Virus record (IMG/VR): IMGVR_UViG_3300030380_003667
Coordinates: 1 to 32,075 of that record
Direction: 5' to 3' (one strand)
Source: a virus
Length of the DNA: 32,075 bases
The notes beneath the pieces are model-generated. The model did not search any database and was not told where the DNA came from. It worked only from the letters and a program-made list of their open reading frames with translations. The first letter of the stretch is position 1. Each line of letters opens with the position of its first letter. The position numbers and the translations under genes were made by a program. Below are positions 15,761 to 24,728 of this stretch, piece after piece.

Positions 15761-16175
15761 ACGTAATATAAAAAAAATCATCATACATCACAGTGCTAGT
15801 CCTGTGTCAACAACGGTTGAAGACATCGATCGTTGGCATAAAGCACGTGGATGGAGAGGGATAGGTTATCATTATGTGTGCCTTGAAGATGGGTCTATTG
15901 AGACAGGTAGAAATATAAATCGATCTGGCGCACATACCAAGGGATACAACAAAGATAGTATTGGTCTTTGTGTTACTGGCAACTTCCAAGATTATCATTG
16001 TCCTAAACCTAGATTTGATAAGTTGATGACTTTCGTGGGTGAACTTATTGAGCAACATGATTTATCATGGGATCATGTCTATTATCATAAACAGTTTGGA
16101 AATACAGCCTGTTGTGGAAGATTTTTGATTGAACAGTTAAAGCAATACTTAAAGGGAAGACGTTGTCAATGTTGA
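15747..16175 (+). CDS. N-acetylmuramoyl-L-alanine amidase endolysin (T7 lysozyme type)
   Basis: This 142 aa protein has the full length of a single Amidase_2 domain. It cleaves the bond between muramic acid and L-alanine in peptidoglycan. Visible features are the zinc ligands His14 (in IIIHHSAS), His114 and Cys122 (HKQFGNTACCGR), the Gly-Tyr-His block around residue 41, and SIGLCVTGNF at 71-80. The order matches T7 lysozyme (known family with His, His and Cys ligands). No signal peptide is present, so export needs a holin. The start at 15747 has GAGGA just upstream; a longer frame from 15711 would overlap the previous gene further. T7 lysozyme also inhibits T7 RNA polymerase, but no such polymerase is encoded here. 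Confidence 0.93.
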   Translation: MPKGKRNIKKIIIHHSASPVSTTVEDIDRWHKARGWRGIGYHYVCLEDGSIETGRNINRSGAHTKGYNKDSIGLCVTGNFQDYHCPKPRFDKLMTFVGELIEQHDLSWDHVYYHKQFGNTACCGRFLIEQLKQYLKGRRCQC

Positions 16176-16474
16176 AGAAGTTTTTAAAAAGACATCTTGT
16201 ACATGGTGAACTTAAGAAGATTGCTATACGTGCAGGTATACATCAGAACAGTGTGTATGCTTGGGTGAAGGGACGCAATCAGCCATCGGTTGTTTCTCTT
16301 ATATGGTTTTTTCGCGCATTGTCAGAGATCAAAGAGAAAGACTATGTGCTATTATGGATAGAGTATTTGTTTACTCTAGAGGGAAGTAAAGATGCCAATA
16401 AAGAAGTACAAGAGTGGTTACAAAGTCAAAGGGACAAAGACCAAGAAAGCTATGACCAAGAAGAAGGCTGTTAA
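16169..16474 (+). CDS. Helix-turn-helix DNA-binding protein
   Basis: This is a 101 aa protein. The start at 16169 (ATG) is preferred over TTG at 16163, with AAGGGA upstream, and it overlaps the amidase stop. Residues about 14-50 (GELKKIAIRAGIHQNSVYAW followed by KGRNQPSV) form a classic helix-turn-helix of the Cro/XRE kind. A hydrophobic helical part follows, then an acidic tail. The tail (from about residue 75) overlaps a second reading frame at 16392-16520. It could regulate late or lysis transcription, but its operator is unknown. Confidence 0.75.
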   Translation: MLKKFLKRHLVHGELKKIAIRAGIHQNSVYAWVKGRNQPSVVSLIWFFRALSEIKEKDYVLLWIEYLFTLEGSKDANKEVQEWLQSQRDKDQESYDQEEGC

Positions 16475-16520
16475 ACAACAGAAAGCAATCTACGCTAGGA
16501 AGAAAAATGGCAAAAGATAG
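16392..16520 (+). CDS. Very small Lys-rich protein (42 aa)
   Basis: The frame starts at ATG 16392 with AGAGGGA about seven bases upstream and encodes 42 aa, of which about 18 are Lys or Arg (MPIKKYKSGYKVKGTKTKKA at the start, AVKQQKAIYARKKNGKR at the end). It overlaps the end of the helix-turn-helix gene by 83 bases in another frame and the start of the next gene by 14 bases. Short proteins ending in an Ala-Ile-Tyr-Ala-Arg-Lys type motif are common in phages in my recollection. Both the strong ribosome site and protein-like content favour it being real. No function is known. Confidence 0.5.
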   Translation: MPIKKYKSGYKVKGTKTKKAMTKKKAVKQQKAIYARKKNGKR

Positions 16521-16839
16521 CTGTTACAAAAAGGTCAAGAAGTCTTACAAGAAGTTTCCGAGCGCACGTGCAAGTCAAGCGATAGCCAAGTGCCGAAAGG
16601 GAAAGGGGAAGGTACGCAAAACAAAAGCAGGTACATCCTTGAAACGATGGGAAAAGGAGAAGTGGGTAGACACACGTACAGGAAAAGCGTGTGGTGCAAA
16701 GACAAACAAGAAACAGTATTGTAGACCTACCAAAAAAGTCTCAAGCAAAACTCCAAAGACTGCATCACAAATATCTCCTGCAAAGAAACGTGCTAACATT
16801 CGTCGGAAGTCTCAAGGAAAACGAGCTAAGAAAGCATAG
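16507..16839 (+). CDS. Basic DUF5872-like protein
   Basis: This is a 110 aa protein. TAGGAAG lies shortly before the start. It is extremely basic (Lys/Arg-rich at both ends) with a conserved-looking core: KRWEKEKWVDTRTGKACGAK, then QYCRPTKKVSSKTPKT. I recognise this as the small family found in large algal viruses and phages called DUF5872; the match is from memory. Five Cys residues (positions 6, 29, 57, 67 and others nearby) could bind metal. It is the last of a run of very basic small genes and may act on nucleic acid, but no function is established. Confidence 0.7.
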   Translation: MAKDSCYKKVKKSYKKFPSARASQAIAKCRKGKGKVRKTKAGTSLKRWEKEKWVDTRTGKACGAKTNKKQYCRPTKKVSSKTPKTASQISPAKKRANIRRKSQGKRAKKA

Positions 16840-16873
16840 GTGTGTTACAAATAAATACACACACTGGTGCAAT

Positions 16874-17677
16874 ATGATAAGGATAGGATCTGCATTTTCT
16901 GGAATCGGGGGGTTTGAAGTCGGCTTAGAGAAAAGCATTCCCGATAGCAAAACTGTTTGGCAGATAGAGCAGAACTCTTTTTGCCAGAAGGTATTGCGTA
17001 AGCATTGGCCGGATTCCAAGATATATGATGATGTACGAGAGGTAGGTGCGCACAACTTGGAGCCTGTCGATATTTTTTGTGCGGGCTTTCCGTGTCAAGA
17101 TATATCTTTAGCAGGAAAGGGAGAGGGTTTGGATGGCAAAAAGTCTGGTCTTTGGTGGGAATGTTTCAGAATCATTAGCGAGCTACGACCACGAATCATC
17201 GTGTTGGAGAACGTCGCAGCTATCACTTTTCGGGGAGGACGAGAAGTGGTTGGAAGCCTTGCCCAAATCGGGTATGACACAGAGTGGCAAGTTATATCAG
17301 CTCGGATGTTCGGTGCGCCTCATCTCAGACGTAGATGGTTTTGCGTCGGTTATACTTCCGACACCAACAGCCAAAGCAAATCAAGCAGCACCTACGATGC
17401 GCAAACATTGGAAGGGATTGTTACCAACTCCAACAGCACATTTAGCAAAAGAAACAGGAGCGCCATCGGAGTACAACAGAGACACTTTGAATCTAATATG
17501 TCACTTTCAGAAAAAGGAAAAGGATATTGGAAAAAGACAAGTCCTGTCTCCCCTCTTTGTGGAGTGGATGATGGGATTCCCGATAGGTTGGACAGACTTA
17601 GAGCGTTAGGCAATGCGATTGTTCCTCAATGCTCAGAGTATATTGGCAAGTGTATTGTCGGAAGTGGTCTTTTATAG
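16874..17677 (+). CDS. dcm-like: DNA cytosine-5 methyltransferase
   Basis: This 267 aa protein transfers a methyl group from S-adenosylmethionine to C5 of cytosine. It has motif I SAFSGIGGFEVGL (residues 6-18), motif IV AGFPCQDIS with catalytic Cys74, motif VI ENVAAI, motif VIII around APHLRRRWF and motif X LRALGNAIVPQ at the end. It is short for the family (usually 300-400 aa) because the target-recognition part is reduced. That is exactly the part overlapped by a second frame (17133-17609). The ATG at 16874 is the first start right before motif I; the frame is open further upstream but would run through the previous gene. The stop overlaps that of the opposing nuclease gene. Its likely role is protection of phage DNA from host restriction. 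Confidence 0.92.
   Translation: MIRIGSAFSGIGGFEVGLEKSIPDSKTVWQIEQNSFCQKVLRKHWPDSKIYDDVREVGAHNLEPVDIFCAGFPCQDISLAGKGEGLDGKKSGLWWECFRIISELRPRIIVLENVAAITFRGGREVVGSLAQIGYDTEWQVISARMFGAPHLRRRWFCVGYTSDTNSQSKSSSTYDAQTLEGIVTNSNSTFSKRNRSAIGVQQRHFESNMSLSEKGKGYWKKTSPVSPLCGVDDGIPDRLDRLRALGNAIVPQCSEYIGKCIVGSGLL
17133..17609 (+). CDS. Overlapping 158-aa frame nested in the methyltransferase gene
   Basis: This frame lies entirely within the methyltransferase gene, shifted by +1. It starts at ATG 17133 with GGGAGAGGG about five bases upstream. The protein is 158 aa and reads like a real conserved family. It has CWRTSQLSLFGE (24-35), LPKSGMTQSGKLYQL (43-57), LPTPTA repeated at 75-80 and 97-102, and SPLFVEWMMGFPIGWTDL (139-156). 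I recall the last block near the C terminus of many phage methyltransferases and in proteins beside them. It may therefore be a separate subunit or target-recognition partner, or a relic of an alternative methyltransferase frame. Both frames look functional over the same bases. Function is unknown. Confidence 0.6.
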   Translation: MAKSLVFGGNVSESLASYDHESSCWRTSQLSLFGEDEKWLEALPKSGMTQSGKLYQLGCSVRLISDVDGFASVILPTPTAKANQAAPTMRKHWKGLLPTPTAHLAKETGAPSEYNRDTLNLICHFQKKEKDIGKRQVLSPLFVEWMMGFPIGWTDLER

Positions 17678-18265
17678 GTCGGGCAAGAACGGTGCTTGTT
17701 TATAAATAGTTGGTATCTTGGGTTCAAACATCCTTTGTTGAATCACATATAAGTATTGATCCTCGATGTCATCTCTTGTCGGGATTTGATCAACACATCC
17801 AATGTAACCATGCACAGAAGAGGTCTTCAAAAACTTGACTCCTTCTGCCTTTGCTCTAGGAGCTTTGATCCTGTGTACATACATGGACTTGACAGCCGCA
17901 ACAAACATATCTCCATTGTACCAGTAGTGTCTGCCTGTCGGTATGTCTACATAGACGATATAGTTTGGGACGTATACCAGGTACTCTGCATATCCCATGG
18001 TAGCTGTCTGTATAATCTCAGCAAAGAAAGTTGGGTATCGATTACCACAGTTTGCAGACTTGACTTCGATCGTTCGTATGTCGTTCCCGATCTCTAGTAC
18101 TATATCGTAGGGTGTGGATTTGCTCTTGGGTAGGTGTGCATTCTTCAGTCCTTGCATGATGAAGAGAGAAAAGAAAGACTCGCTGTGATGGTTGAGCATG
18201 TCCACCACAGCGAGTTCGGATATGAGTCCGGTCTTGAGGAGTTTATGAAATGATTGGTTTGTCAT
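17672..18265 (-). CDS. PD-(D/E)XK nuclease-like protein
   Basis: This is a 197 aa protein from the ATG at 18265 (MTNQSFHKLLKTGLISELAV). The frame is open to 18328 and an earlier start there is possible, but it would overlap the primase gene by 86 bases. Core motif: TPYDIVLE then IRTIEVKSA, matching Asp-x(n)-Glu-x-Lys of the restriction-endonuclease fold, preceded by a conserved helix with GLISELAVVDML. The Glu-Val-Lys is intact, so it is probably active. It is the last gene of the leftward replication block, so a Holliday-junction or recombination nuclease is most likely. A restriction partner for the facing methyltransferase cannot be excluded. Confidence 0.7.
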   Translation of the reverse strand: MTNQSFHKLLKTGLISELAVVDMLNHHSESFFSLFIMQGLKNAHLPKSKSTPYDIVLEIGNDIRTIEVKSANCGNRYPTFFAEIIQTATMGYAEYLVYVPNYIVYVDIPTGRHYWYNGDMFVAAVKSMYVHRIKAPRAKAEGVKFLKTSSVHGYIGCVDQIPTRDDIEDQYLYVIQQRMFEPKIPTIYKQAPFLPDL

Positions 18266-20486
18266 CTTGTTCTGGGGAATAATACCATCCAGAACGATTG
18301 ACTCCATTCCTCCGACAACGCTTGCCATGGTTTTGCAGTTCGCACCCTAGCTGTTTAAGGAGAGTAGGATAAAAGTTAGGATAGGATACAGGTTTGATTG
18401 TGCGTGCGCCATACACTTGCTCAATCATATCCGAAACAGTAAAGTACTGTCCACAGTTTTCGTCCACAAACTCTTGTATAAGTGTGTCGTGTATCCCAGT
18501 CACAGTGTGTTCTTGATTTTTTTCACGTGACAACTTCTGTTCATCGGGAGTCAGCCACCACTGCTCTCCACTTTTGAATGCAGCCACAGCTTCAGCCCAT
18601 AACTGATCTCGCTCTTCAATAAGTTCAGCCTCATCGAATGCCATGTAGTCTTCCTTTCCATGACACTTGATGTACCAGTATCGACGAGATCCTGTTCGGT
18701 CTTTAAAGATTGCAACGTCTTCATCGTTTGCGCTACCCCAGTTTATGGACGAGCGTTTGACCTTCACCTCGTACTTGTCGTATGCTCTTCGGAATGTATC
18801 GGTATCGTCAGACAGGAAGTTCTTTATTGTGTTCGCGTCCTTCTTAGCCATGGCAGATAGTTCAGCCATCTCATGTATCCATGCTGTGCGTAGGATAGAC
18901 TGTCCATCTTTGTGTCCTATGTTTATGGGGCTGCTGTTGTACCAAGAGTAACCTGTTAGCTGACAGTAGCCTGCCATAACTTTGATGAACGTTCCCTTGC
19001 CATGTCCTTGTGGAGCATTTATGACAGGCATGGTATCAACTTTGCATCCAGGTTGTATCGCTCTGGCAACAGCAGCGATCATCCATTTGCGAGAATATAT
19101 CTGGTTGAGTTCGGTATTGTCACACTTGAGATACTTGTGCAGTGTGTTGTGTATTCTTTTGATTCCATCCCATTGCAATGAGTTCAGATAGTCTACTATT
19201 GGGTTGACCTCTCTTTGCTCTCCGTGTATGGCCATCGCGTGCTGCACCATTTTCAGTTCCAAGTTCCGACCTGGGAAGAACTTTTTCCGAAGGTCGCTCA
19301 TGATTCTCAGTTCGGTCACATCCATTACAGGTTGATCTCTCGTAAATAGACGTTGTCGGATCTCACATTTCCAGAGGTCAATGTTAAGACTCCATATCAT
19401 TTCGACGATGTTGTCTACAGACTTGAGATACTTCCACTGTTTGTTCCCATCAGTGTACTGCAGCTCTAAACCATTATCTGTTGTGATGCAATCCAGATGT
19501 GCTTTGCGCTCGTTGACGCACGTGAGTCTGTATCGAGCCACACCCCATAGGTCTACTGCTCTGTGGATAAAAGCACTGCCCAGTGTACCAGACCCTGGAG
19601 CATAGCACTGGTATTTCCCTTTGCGCTTATGTAGGTTAGGCCATTGCTCTACATACCAGTCAAAAGGATGTGCGTTCCCATCTGACCCAGTGATCGGATA
19701 TGTCGATGGTACGCTCAGAACTTTGTATCGTTGTCCTCCAGAAGGAGGAGGAGTATAATCCACAGGCACAGCACTACTAGTGTGTATTGGTTGTGGTCGT
19801 GTGGCGTTGGGATAAGTAGGTACATAGTCTGCCAATAGTTTGTCGATGTTAATCACGCCGCCATCTCCAAACTTACTCCACTTCTGATCTGCCCTGTCAG
19901 CACGTGCGCACGGGAAGAACCAGAACCGTGCAGGGTCTTTTGTTTGTATGTCATTCTCTGGGAAAAACTTTTGCATGGAAAACCAAACACGTTGATACTC
20001 CTTGAGTTTGATGGGACGTGACACAGGGAGAATAAGACGGAATGTGTATCCTTCTTTCAGTCCTTGTGAGTACGATGAGAATGCAGTATAACATACACCA
20101 TCTAATCTTGTGAACACACTGCGTGCTGTCTGCTCGTCAAGACCATCTAGATCCATGATGAATGCATTGACTGTATCGACAGATTCGGATTGTCGGTTCC
20201 CTTCCCTTGTAGCCCACGAAACAGGACAGAATAAAGGGACATCTTCTTTTCCACATTCTATCTTTTTTCCTGCTTTGTTTGTTAGTGTCCTCATGTTATC
20301 GACGATGATGTGACTCATGACATCGTGATGACCTGCGCGTAGGATGATCTCATGCGCATTTGATAGCTTGTTGGTTATCCACCAACGACCTTTCGGAGCA
20401 GGATGTTTTGTAGCAGGAAAAGAAATATCTTCTGCTCTCATGTTGTCGGTTGTGATGTAGTGTGTTAATGTATTTGTACTAGTCAT
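18243..20486 (-). CDS. Primase-helicase fusion (AEP-like N terminus, VapE-type helicase)
   Basis: This is a 747 aa replication protein. Residues about 95-200 resemble an archaeo-eukaryotic-type primase: FIMDLDG gives the paired Asp112/Asp114, and FRLILPVSRP and DPARFWFFPC follow. Residues about 455-670 form a virulence-associated E-type AAA+ domain with Walker A APQGHGKGT (491-499), Walker B WIHEMAEL (536-543), INWGSAND (sensor) and DRTGSRRYW (arginine finger). A central linker has aromatic and Cys residues. It should unwind DNA and lay primers for host polymerase. AAAGGA lies eight bases before the start. The start overlaps the previous stop by 8 bases. No DNA polymerase is encoded nearby. 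Confidence 0.85.
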   Translation of the reverse strand: MTSTNTLTHYITTDNMRAEDISFPATKHPAPKGRWWITNKLSNAHEIILRAGHHDVMSHIIVDNMRTLTNKAGKKIECGKEDVPLFCPVSWATREGNRQSESVDTVNAFIMDLDGLDEQTARSVFTRLDGVCYTAFSSYSQGLKEGYTFRLILPVSRPIKLKEYQRVWFSMQKFFPENDIQTKDPARFWFFPCARADRADQKWSKFGDGGVINIDKLLADYVPTYPNATRPQPIHTSSAVPVDYTPPPSGGQRYKVLSVPSTYPITGSDGNAHPFDWYVEQWPNLHKRKGKYQCYAPGSGTLGSAFIHRAVDLWGVARYRLTCVNERKAHLDCITTDNGLELQYTDGNKQWKYLKSVDNIVEMIWSLNIDLWKCEIRQRLFTRDQPVMDVTELRIMSDLRKKFFPGRNLELKMVQHAMAIHGEQREVNPIVDYLNSLQWDGIKRIHNTLHKYLKCDNTELNQIYSRKWMIAAVARAIQPGCKVDTMPVINAPQGHGKGTFIKVMAGYCQLTGYSWYNSSPINIGHKDGQSILRTAWIHEMAELSAMAKKDANTIKNFLSDDTDTFRRAYDKYEVKVKRSSINWGSANDEDVAIFKDRTGSRRYWYIKCHGKEDYMAFDEAELIEERDQLWAEAVAAFKSGEQWWLTPDEQKLSREKNQEHTVTGIHDTLIQEFVDENCGQYFTVSDMIEQVYGARTIKPVSYPNFYPTLLKQLGCELQNHGKRCRRNGVNRSGWYYSPEQDDKPIIS

Positions 20487-20712
20487 TTTTGTTTCCTTTG
20501 TTGTGATGGCTGGTGTGTGATATGGCCGGTTGAGACTCTTGTTCCCAACCGGCTTCTTTTATTAAGAGCATCATTAGGTTGTCGGCTATGAATAATCCGA
20601 GTGCCTGACGGATGCAAGCAGATGTGTTCAATCCTTTTGCATTGGCTATGGTCTGAAATGTTTCGTATGTCTTCTGGTCCATGCGTAGCATGTATGCTTT
20701 TCGTTTACTCAT
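20479..20712 (-). CDS. Ribbon-helix-helix DNA-binding protein
   Basis: This is a 77 aa protein. The start at 20712 has AAGGAGA eight bases upstream; an upstream in-frame ATG at 20736 has no such site and overlaps the previous gene. The N-terminal 45 residues fit the Arc/MetJ/CopG fold: a short strand (KAYMLRMD), then a helix (QKTYETFQTIANAKG), a turn with LNTSACIRQALGLFI and a second helix. The C-terminal tail is polar. Its stop overlaps the start of the primase gene. Such proteins commonly repress their own operon or control copy number; it is a candidate binder for the palindromes at 23584-24100. Confidence 0.75.
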   Translation of the reverse strand: MSKRKAYMLRMDQKTYETFQTIANAKGLNTSACIRQALGLFIADNLMMLLIKEAGWEQESQPAISHTSHHNKGNKND

Positions 20713-20725
20713 GTCGGGTGTCTCC

Positions 20726-20947
20726 TTATCCTGCATTACAGAATGTTATTGTGTGTTGGTCTTTGAGTACATTAATAATCTGGTTGTATGTCTCCCAAGA
20801 TACTTCCACTGATCGTGTACCCATGACTATGTAGCAGGTTGAATCATCGTCATATTTGCGCCAATGCTCTGTTCTGATCATGTGTGTCGGAACTGTATGT
20901 TGTGTATTATCTGTGTCGATAAACTGAATGAATGATAAGTTATTCAT
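20726..20947 (-). CDS. Small unknown early protein
   Basis: This is a 73 aa protein starting at the ATG at 20947 with GGAG six bases upstream; TTG at 20959 is an alternative. It has no Cys clusters or membrane segment. It reads as a small alpha/beta protein with Trp and Tyr residues (RTEHWRKYDDDSTCYIVMGT, VEVSWETYNQIINVL). It overlaps the neighbouring gene at 20940-20947. It is unknown and probably a host-takeover or replication accessory protein (inference from the block it is in). Confidence 0.65.
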   Translation of the reverse strand: MNNLSFIQFIDTDNTQHTVPTHMIRTEHWRKYDDDSTCYIVMGTRSVEVSWETYNQIINVLKDQHTITFCNAG

Positions 20948-22178: not shown

Positions 22179-23018
22179 TTATGCTATTCGTGCTATACGT
22201 GCTTTGTGCTGTGTGTTTGTTGCACCGTGTAACACTTCGGTTATTGTCTTTTGTCTCCGAGACTTACCATTGCATAGCATACAAGTTGAACACGTCATAG
22301 GGAGTCCATGCATATCTTTTTTGTCTGTACTTGCTAAGCATCTTATACCCTCTTCTTTTGCTTCCTTTTCGTTGTCAGTTACAAAGAATGTATTCCAACC
22401 TAGCGCACGCGCCTTCTCATTTTCGCGTGCGTTATCGACGCTTGCCATAAATAAATCTTGCATGTCTTGATACTCTGGTTTGTTCCATTGGTGCGTATAT
22501 CCTGTGTAGTTTTCGCAAGTAGAGAGGAGCTTAGACCATACCGAAACAGGAACCGCAGCGGGATCCCCGGCCGCTCCAACTCGGACACGAAGACCACGGA
22601 GAAACTCTTTCGAGAGAGTCATCGGAATAGCCGATTGACTCTTTGCACTTTTCCAAACACTACCAAGGTTACTCCAACGAACATAACATCCATTATTTCC
22701 GTTATATTTACAATCCCCGCAAACAGCAGAAGAACCAGAGAAATATATATCCTTTGGTGTTTCGTGTACGGGTAGAATATAAAGTTGTACGAGAGGACCC
22801 GTCTTTCCGTTGGTGCTGTCTTTCGTAAATCCTGACATGACAACCATGATAGGTGTTTCATTGTCAAGCAAAGAGATACCTTTATATAGTACAAGAGTCT
22901 CCTTATACTTGAGTGCTTTTGTAATGGCTTTGTTGAGTCCTTTGTTGACAAGATTGCGAACGATAAAAGGGCCTGTTGTGTGTTTGCTGTTAGCTATTGC
23001 TTTGATTGTATTAAACAT
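22179..23018 (-). CDS. Conserved Cys-rich phage protein, unknown function
   Basis: This is a 279 aa protein with AAAGGATA shortly before its ATG. Cys clusters are Cys100-x2-Cys103 with Cys111, Cys227, and Cys243-x2-Cys246-x2-Cys249, so a metal site or iron-sulfur centre is plausible. Recognisable blocks are CGDCKYNGNNGCYV, RVGAAGDPAAVPVSVW, YTGYTHQW and MASVDNARENEKA. I recall these as the signature of a widespread phage domain of unknown function. The final Cys cluster and a basic tail (RIARIA) could bind nucleic acid. It is the largest of the early block after the primase. The GC-rich patch at about 22545-22585 encodes the GDPAAVP motif. Confidence 0.7.
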   Translation of the reverse strand: MFNTIKAIANSKHTTGPFIVRNLVNKGLNKAITKALKYKETLVLYKGISLLDNETPIMVVMSGFTKDSTNGKTGPLVQLYILPVHETPKDIYFSGSSAVCGDCKYNGNNGCYVRWSNLGSVWKSAKSQSAIPMTLSKEFLRGLRVRVGAAGDPAAVPVSVWSKLLSTCENYTGYTHQWNKPEYQDMQDLFMASVDNARENEKARALGWNTFFVTDNEKEAKEEGIRCLASTDKKDMHGLPMTCSTCMLCNGKSRRQKTITEVLHGATNTQHKARIARIA

Positions 23019-23045: not shown

Positions 23046-23348
23046 TTATAGGTGAGAGTCTAGATATGATACTAGGGCCTGGATGTGTTTATAGTCTGTT
23101 ATTTTGTAGTCGGTCGTGATCTCACTATCTATTATTGGCTTGTGTTTTGACCATTCGATGATACGAAAAGTATCATATGTTTTAAAGTCACGCGTCAATA
23201 TGATTGTGATGTTATCATGGTCAAGCGTGACAAAATGCCTGCAATAGGTATAGATATAATCTTTAAAATCGGAGAACTCGTTTTTTTCACAAAGCTCATC
23301 GTATTCTGAAGCTGTAACGGGGTAGCGATTAAATAGTATCTCGGTCAT
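23046..23348 (-). CDS. Small unknown early protein
   Basis: This is a 100 aa protein with AAAGGA eight bases before its ATG, within the end of the previous short gene. It is rich in Asp, Tyr, Thr and Lys, with an acidic first half (SEYDELCEKNEFSDFKDYIY) and a strand-rich second half (ITIILTRDFKTYDTFRII). No motif is recognised. It is the second gene of the leftward block and is probably made very early. Confidence 0.65.
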   Translation of the reverse strand: MTEILFNRYPVTASEYDELCEKNEFSDFKDYIYTYCRHFVTLDHDNITIILTRDFKTYDTFRIIEWSKHKPIIDSEITTDYKITDYKHIQALVSYLDSHL

Positions 23349-23579: not shown

Positions 23580-23608
23580 TACATATATCATTTTGATATA
23601 CACGTCAA
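23580..23608 (-). promoter_or_regulatory. Leftward promoter with palindromic operator
   Basis: On the minus strand, TTGACG at 23603-23608 is a near-consensus -35 box. A -10 region lies at about 23580-23587 (TATATG or TATGTA; spacing 15-17). Position 23530, the first leftward start codon, lies about 50 bases downstream. The spacer holds the 17-bp palindrome at 23584-23600, listed separately. The -10 match is imperfect, so the exact box is uncertain. Confidence 0.55.
23584..23600. promoter_or_regulatory. 17-bp palindrome in the leftward promoter spacer
   Basis: Two perfect 7-base arms (TATATCA and TGATATA) flank TTT. The site sits between the -35 and -10 boxes, where a bound protein would block RNA polymerase. 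Candidate binders are the ribbon-helix-helix protein (20479-20712) or a host regulator. An 11-base A run follows at about 23607-23617. Confidence 0.55.
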
Positions 23609-23917
23609 AAAAAAAAATGAAAAATGTTTGTACACGAAAAAATATATTGTTCGCTGATCTATATATAAAGTGTTCAAGTGTTCAAAGATTTTCATTTTTT
23701 TCGTTCTGATATTGAACAGATTGTGAACAGTGATAACATAGGAAGATACTCAGTTTTCATCGAACTGTTCGACTATACTATAAAAGTGTTCAATAAAGAT
23801 TATGCCCAAAAGCTTACATTATCATATAGTGTTAGGATTTTTTTTAAAAGGTTTAGGAGCCTAGGAACAAGCGAACACAAAAAAAAATACAAGAATATTT
23901 TTGAGTCCTATTATCTA

Positions 23918-23956
23918 CTCACTAGTAGGTAAGTGAGTCCGTAATCTACTAGTGAG
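23918..23956. repeat. Inverted repeat, 11-bp arms
   Basis: CTCACTAGTAG (23918-23928) and CTACTAGTGAG (23946-23956) are exact reverse complements separated by 17 bases. A third AGTGAG lies in between (23932-23937) and could form an alternative hairpin with the left arm. It may be a DNA hairpin or a binding site. It does not resemble a terminator because no T run follows. Confidence 0.7.
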
Positions 23957-24017
23957 AAGGTTAATAACATACTGCACGCGCGTTCAGTGGTGTGGATGAA
24001 CCGAACACTGTTCACCT

Positions 24018-24053
24018 ACTGAACACTCATTCAGTACTGAACATCCATTCAGT
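24018..24053. repeat. Tandem pair of 18-bp inverted-repeat units
   Basis: Two adjacent 18-bp units (24018-24035 and 24036-24053) have the form ACTGAACA-yy-CATTCAGT and differ only at the two central bases (CT versus TC). Each unit has perfect ACTGAA/TTCAGT arms. The exact spacing and variation only at the centre are characteristic of a protein-binding iteron pair. Confidence 0.75.
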
Positions 24054-24100
24054 GTCTATGCGCTACCGAACACTGTTCGGACACTGTACAAACGTTCAGG

Positions 24101-24275
24101 TCGGGGGGACCCCCAAAGCGGTGTAATAGAGAAAATGGGGACACCAAAAAATATCTGGATGACTTTTTTAGATTTTGGTTGTTTTAAGGCACTGAGGACA
24201 TGTTTTTGTTATACTATTTTTGCATGGTGTTTTCGATGATATATTTATTTTGTATATATCACGCAGGAGGATACC
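24101..24275. other. Leader upstream of the rightward block; G/C run and AT-rich region
   Basis: GGGGGGACCCCC (24103-24114) is a homopolymer palindrome. It is followed by AT-rich DNA with TATACT (24210-24215) and TATATT (24240-24245), either of which could be a -10 box. Neither has a good -35 box at normal spacing, so I do not call a promoter. AGGAGG at 24265-24270 serves the next gene. No other gene is seen. Confidence 0.5.
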
Positions 24276-24728
24276 GTGTACACAGATTATGGAGTAGGCA
24301 TGGCAGAACACAAAAGTAAGATTCCAACAAAAATACAAACATTTATAGTCAAAATGAATCCCGTTGCAAAGGGTAGACCCAGATTTACCAAGGCAGGTCG
24401 AACATATACACCGAAAAAAACGAAAGAGGCTACAGATGTAATCGCGAAAAAGATTGAAGAGCAAAGAGGAGAGCAGATTCCAAAGGGTGCGCCTGTTTCG
24501 TTGTATTGTAAATTTATGTGTAAACGTCCAGTGAGTATGGGTAAGGGTGATAGGGTATTGAAGACGACCAAGCCAGATGTAGATAACTATTTAAAACTTG
24601 TTATGGATGCTTGTAATCAAGCGCAGGTTTGGGAAGATGACAGTCAAGTGGTTGAGGTTCTTGCACAGAAATGGTATTGTGCTGATTACCAAGAGCCAGA
24701 GGTTCAGATACAGATAAGTAGGTTATGA
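24276..24728 (+). CDS. rusA-like: RusA-type Holliday junction resolvase
   Basis: This 150 aa protein cuts four-way DNA junctions; in phages it resolves branched DNA before packaging. Family features are GRPRFTKAG in the N-terminal part (residues 33-41), the acidic pair Asp101/Asp103 in TTKPDVDNYLK, and a third acidic site in VWEDDSQVV (Asp121/122). The start is GTG at 24276 with AGGAGG five bases upstream. An ATG at 24300 with GGAG is an alternative that would remove 8 residues. It is the first gene of the rightward block, next to terminase, as usual for junction resolvases linked to packaging. Confidence 0.85.
   Translation: MYTDYGVGMAEHKSKIPTKIQTFIVKMNPVAKGRPRFTKAGRTYTPKKTKEATDVIAKKIEEQRGEQIPKGAPVSLYCKFMCKRPVSMGKGDRVLKTTKPDVDNYLKLVMDACNQAQVWEDDSQVVEVLAQKWYCADYQEPEVQIQISRL

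Follow-up and report, generated by a model that had tools for sequence, protein, structure and literature searches.

In iteron plasmids, the Rep monomer binds the iterons and the Rep dimer binds an inverted-repeat operator of common sequence. Among systems with a helicase as initiator, the SaPI Rep protein recognises its origin iterons through its C-terminal domain (PMC7581432), the origins of E. coli PICIs consist of an AT-rich region flanked by two sets of iterons (PMC6092414), and the winged helix of the P4 alpha protein binds the origin repeats of that satellite (PMC4234260). The P4 record annotates type-1 origin repeats that read TGTTCACC in 11 of 16 cases, with a spacing of ~10–11 bp in ori, which has the leftward alpha operon on one side and the rightward sid operon on the other. 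Here we analyse a divergent intergenic region of an environmental phage that, on balance, we favour reading as its main control region, in which a left block of repeats would be an iteron origin for a VapE-type primase-helicase and a right block would hold operators most likely bound by an XRE-type protein.

The sequence analysed, referred to below as the window, is the whole of IMG/VR record IMGVR_UViG_3300030380_003667 (32,075 bases). This contig carries a 99-base direct terminal repeat and is therefore probably a complete, circularly assembled genome. The phage is small and looks lytic, and gene scans of the window named no integrase. Nucleotide comparison with annotated phages found no similar DNA in the phage collection searched, where the closest terminases are ~25–27% identical, and a search of GTDB bacterial genomes found no related TerL, with no host or provirus identified. 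An Rfam search gave no match. The genes are arranged in two divergent blocks. The leftward block runs from 23348 to 17672 and encodes the VapE-type primase-helicase, a ribbon-helix-helix protein and small proteins. The rightward block begins with RusA (24276), continues through the terminase, portal, head, tail and lysis genes, and crosses the contig ends to reach an XRE-type protein (16169–16471) and a C5 cytosine methyltransferase (16691–17677). Near the head of the leftward operon lies a 279-amino-acid protein of PHROG 2554 (unknown function; 22182–23018), which has conserved cysteines and is missing from some relatives. The genes that bear on the control region are as follows.

18243–20486, minus strand: VapE-type primase-helicase, proposed initiator acting at the left block (PF05272, E=2.7e-68; PDB 7pds, E=2e-27)
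20482–20736, minus strand: ribbon-helix-helix protein, considered for binding to the TGTTC array but disfavoured
24276–24728, plus strand: RusA-like resolvase, with which the rightward (late) block opens (PF05866, E=2.3e-26)
16169–16471, plus strand: helix-turn-helix protein of the XRE/Cro type, candidate for binding the right block (AlphaFold2 pLDDT 92)

Between positions 23648 and 24100, TGTTC/GAACA occurs 15 times, compared with 1.6 expected and a maximum of 6 in 2000 dinucleotide shuffles, and the shorter GTTC/GAAC occurs 20 times (4.1 expected; shuffle maximum 12). Across the whole window TGTTC/GAACA is barely enriched (111 vs 97), and the excess is therefore limited to the intergenic region from which the leftward block (from 23348) and the rightward block (24276 onward) diverge. 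An earlier note on this DNA, made from the sequence alone, had described a dense array at the point of divergence with palindromes and two 18-bp inverted units, and all of this was borne out: the palindromes are TCGAACTGTTCGA at 23760–23772 and GAACACTGTTC at 24003–24013 and 24068–24078, the 18-bp units are ACTGAACACTCATTCAGT (24018) and ACTGAACATCCATTCAGT (24036), and weaker palindromes are found at 23971 and 24083. The controls that the note had proposed were also run. Relatives were collected through searches with the RusA, TerL and XRE proteins, and about a dozen of them carry the array at the same position, each exceeding shuffled sequence several-fold in one or both blocks. The array is real and conserved, and it looks functional. 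The GC-skew check, likewise proposed, gave no origin signal and is uninformative on this point because the skew rises steadily and is flat only across the leftward genes. The intergenic region is 33% GC, compared with 40% for the genome, with A/T runs at 23590–23660 and 23877–23905. The contigs of many relatives break inside the control region (as at the starts of L002, L003, L006, L008 and L010), suggesting that it is hypervariable between strains; contig ends were considered as a sign of a physical cos end, and this idea was dropped as the ends cluster throughout the hypervariable region.

What the earlier note had missed is that the array consists of two blocks of different architecture that share one half-site, with an unrelated palindrome pair as separator. 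These blocks and the neighbouring elements are listed below.

23648–23877, no strand assigned: left block with nine half-sites (TGTTC/GAACA), arranged mainly as direct repeats, proposed replication-origin iterons (shuffles and relatives)
23914–23959, no strand assigned: palindrome family TCTACT-N4-AGTAG / CTACTAGTGAGAAG between the blocks (repeat search; related units in relatives)
23971–24099, no strand assigned: right block, six palindromes of the form ACTGNAC-N4-RTTCAGT or GAAC-N3-GTTC, proposed operators (motif matches and relatives)
24102–24156, no strand assigned: GC-rich element GGGGGG-A-CCCCC-AAA...TGGGGACACC-AAAAAATATC, candidate packaging (cos) site (15 aligned sequences)
23580–23608, minus strand: predicted leftward early promoter with −35 TTGACG (23603–23608), a 17-bp spacer and −10-like TATGTA (23580–23585)
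24207–24215, plus strand: predicted late rightward promoter, extended −10 TGT-TATACT (conservation)

When the relatives were pooled, the two blocks gave opposite spacing statistics, with direct repeats in the left block and palindromes in the right. In the window, positions 23600–23900 hold 9 sites (0.9 expected; maximum 5), including direct pairs 8 bp apart at 23671/23679 and 23865/23873 and 11 bp apart at 23714/23725, and the one close inverted pair of the left block is that at 23760–23772. For the left-block half-site TGTTCA, the pooled relatives contain 14 direct pairs at a spacing of 8 bp (1.9 expected) and 17 at 10–11 bp (3.8 expected), and GAAC-N3/4-GTTC palindromes occur in the left block of none of the relatives examined. 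In the pooled right blocks, GAAC-N3-GTTC is found 25 times (1.2 expected; maximum 7) and GAAC-N4-GTTC 11 times (1.2 expected; maximum 8), and close direct pairs are almost absent. The six palindromes of the window are centred at ~23979.5, 24008, 24026.5, 24044.5, 24073 and 24091.5, that is, 18–18.5 or 28.5 bp apart, two distances that, computed from the coordinates, differ by about one helical turn. Every match in the window to CTGNAC-N4-RTTCAG or GAAC-N3-GTTC lies within the right block, with none elsewhere in the genome.

The left block combines several attributes of iteron origins, namely regularly spaced intergenic direct repeats (8 and 10–11 bp, far above permutation), AT-rich DNA beside or inside the repeats, and a VapE-type helicase encoded on the same element. 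Judged by these features, it is most likely an iteron origin of the P4/SaPI satellite type. The earlier note had recognised no known system with this layout, which was wrong: the P4 ori and crr regions, with their TGTTCACC repeats, share the TGTTCA core, the 10–11 bp direct spacing and a dense array at a similar point of divergence, where a primase-helicase operon runs leftward and late genes run rightward, and alpha is a helicase with a C-terminal winged helix, a fold that is only predicted here. Unlike in P4, the CC after the core is mostly absent, an 8-bp spacing is common, an extra palindromic block is present, the C-terminal domain of the helicase has no detectable sequence relation to alpha, and the element is a full phage rather than a satellite. 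The repeats are thus not the full P4 octamer; TGTTCA is common, the last two bases mostly differ, and scoring with a P4 type-1 weight matrix left just 1–2 matches in the left block of the window, so that the likeness is restricted to the core. Among the relatives, L015 carries P4-like GGTGAACAG repeats and L096 has four GTGAACACCT-like repeats with a spacing of 10 bp. The SaPI/PICI systems are alike in having a VapE-type helicase (the 7pds match) and iterons near AT-rich DNA, but their iteron sequence differs, and the SaPI origin lies directly downstream of rep, whereas the array here is ~3.2 kb from the VapE gene (~3–3.2 kb upstream of it, at divergent promoters).

The primase-helicase was not named in the earlier note and is here the best candidate binder of the left block. 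Its PDB match 7pds is described as ‘Similar to D. nodosus vapE’. The C-terminal 116 residues (18246–18593) have a winged-helix topology in the AlphaFold2 model (pLDDT 79, moderate confidence); solved structures matched this domain weakly throughout (E at least 0.1), and comparison with P4 alpha detected no sequence or profile similarity. On present evidence the helicase and the left block appear to work like their P4 and SaPI counterparts, as analogues rather than as proven members of those systems. In VapE-bearing viruses, a predicted wing reading GKRCRR, GNRCRR or GRRCRR accompanies the left half-site TGTTCA, GKKCRR accompanies TGTTCC (G026), and GKACRR accompanies TGTTG/TGTTA (G011, G014, G015 and their sample mates or relatives). 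In the two lineages in which the left half-site has changed, the right palindromes keep GTTCAG; those of the TGTTG clade include ACTGTACAGATGTTCAGT in L018 and are slightly degenerate in L019. This retention speaks for a separate binder at each of the two blocks. The covariation of wing and half-site is suggestive only, because the residue was chosen after the alignment had been seen and two changes or lineages are available; in the TGTTG clade, the XRE protein is different too. Iteron plasmids likewise have direct- and inverted-repeat arrays with a common half-site, but here the correlated changes suggest two proteins, the array is larger, and the replication protein is a primase-helicase.

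The tandem sites of the right block, each two-fold symmetric and 14–18 bp long, fit an XRE dimer, and the XRE protein probably binds them. It is encoded in every near-complete VapE-bearing relative, and wherever a genome has TGTTC sites the recognition region of the protein (HxNSVYxWxKGRNxP) hardly varies. Foldseek matched its predicted fold to C.BclI, P22 c2 and 434 Cro with a probability of ~1 but E ~0.1. Operators of XRE/Cro-type proteins (P22 c2, 434 Cro and C proteins) are alike in being tandem palindromes of ~16–18 bp on an element that encodes an XRE-fold protein. Here, in contrast, there are six or more sites, the protein gene is at the end of the late operon, and the sites overlap neither predicted promoter, lying ~110–240 bp upstream of the predicted late extended −10 (TGTTATACT); the block may therefore act by looping or upstream activation, or at the neighbouring GC-rich element. 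Within 16169–17677, the C5 cytosine methyltransferase gene comes shortly after that for the XRE-type protein, whose fold most resembles restriction-modification C proteins, with weak E-values. The earlier note had suggested both the helix-turn-helix and the ribbon-helix-helix protein as binders. The former is plausible for the right block, and the latter is disfavoured because its putative contact-strand residues vary freely (A-M-R, I-P-R, V-P-K, T-P-K, C-P-Q) among genomes in which TGTTC is unchanged. Another candidate, the 100-amino-acid product of the first leftward gene (23046–23348), was rejected, as it has no homologue in any relative.

Both promoters are predictions. TTGAC of the leftward promoter-like sequence is invariant in 7 aligned relatives, and this sequence was not picked by a generic consensus promoter scan; TTTTTGTTATACTATTTTTGCA at the predicted late promoter hardly varies between the window and its close relatives. 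In the GC-rich element, CCCCC is invariant and the flanks are conserved in 15 aligned sequences. Units related to the middle palindromes are present in L004, L005 and L007, with TTGACAATCTGTCA repeats instead in L016 and L096; these palindromes (TCTACT-N4-AGTAGA) change fast, and the ribbon-helix-helix protein is one idea for their binder. Some relatives contain a conserved, GC-rich and structured-looking stretch with GAGGGAGCGAY (L010:100–310, L012:540–700 and the equivalents in L017–L019), which is absent from the window; it is a possible small RNA, with no Rfam match in L010 or L017.

Near-complete viruses that lack VapE and have a 48–57% identical terminase (G028, G034–G038 and G040) carry no array and no XRE protein, and they reach at most 7 TGTTC per 450 bp, compared with 13–16 in viruses that bear the array. 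In G030, G032 and G040, the first two of which are fragments, six DnaA-box-like sites lie within 300 bp just left of the GC-rich element. Direct-repeat arrays of the DnaA-box type TTATTCACA were also seen beside the GC-rich element of VapE-less terminase relatives (L154:1458–1525, L150:830–910 and L172:1311–1390), which suggests an origin dependent on host DnaA. The GC-rich element itself (GGGGG..CCCCCAAA..TGGGGA..AAAAAATATC) is kept even in such relatives.

The joint loss of both blocks in VapE-less relatives, together with the TGTTC core common to the two, would also be expected if a single protein, the initiator helicase, bound the whole array, as monomers on the direct repeats for origin function and as dimers on the palindromes for autoregulation, the arrangement of iteron plasmids. 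We regard this as rather doubtful, since the TGTTG clade and G026 changed the left half-site with the right palindromes unchanged, and the extended consensus of the right block, in which CAGT follows TGTT, sets it apart. A pure transcription switch, in which all sites are operators of a repressor (XRE or ribbon-helix-helix) between early and late promoters and no origin is present, would account for the exact position at the divergence point, the conserved promoter-like sequences on both flanks and the constant presence of the XRE protein; it seems unlikely given that the 8 and 10–11 bp direct spacing, the match to P4 origin repeats and the DnaA-box arrays of terminase relatives indicate replication for at least one block.

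The right block is immediately adjacent to the conserved GC-rich element, which lies upstream of terS, and TerS carries an N-terminal helix-turn-helix, so a cosB-like binding site for the small terminase subunit beside the cos candidate was weighed as well. VapE-less relatives from the same terminase family keep the GC-rich element without the palindromes, however, and the number of palindromes varies widely among relatives with similar TerS, which makes this distinctly improbable. Sites for a host regulator would be very improbable: GAAC-N7-GAAC, recalling alphaproteobacterial-type LexA boxes (GTTC-N7-GTTC), occurs once (23714–23728), and N7 is not the dominant spacing; the core resembles part of a DnaA box, but the window has no more than 1 TTWTNCACA per 300 bp, which is background and not a cluster. 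Chance or a compositional artefact is a negligible prospect in view of the shuffle controls and of the conservation in relatives with different flanking sequence.

The favoured reading remains a left iteron origin beside right operators, with which the earlier suggestion of an origin, a switch or both agrees about right, as the left block resembles the one and the right block the other; which protein binds which block, and to what end, we infer. The C-terminal winged helix of the VapE-type helicase would bind the TGTTCA direct repeats on neighbouring helical turns, and the bound initiator would load the helicase and open the adjacent AT-rich DNA, as P4 alpha and SaPI Rep do. The XRE-type protein, made from the far end of the late operon, would bind the dimer operators of the right block, most likely cooperatively, and would in this way act at a distance on how early and late transcription are balanced. 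More speculatively, and at a level of confidence that is tentative at best, the initiator and a late repressor may use one half-site in direct and inverted form, such that the firing of the origin would compete or cross-talk with late transcription at the sites they share, with initiator specificity having switched at least twice in one phage family via the wing.

On this reading, a likely origin and initiator can be assigned for several dozen environmental phage contigs, a family for which the phage collection searched contains no close cultured relative, and the P4/SaPI style of origin would extend to complete phages. Next to a packaging block that is conserved, origin modules appear to be exchanged, either VapE with iterons or DnaA boxes. 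Each part belongs to a known kind; what is of interest is that they occur together in a phage family, along with the naturally occurring shifts in site specificity, which pair origin sites with candidate helicase residues and would make initiator specificity testable by domain swaps.
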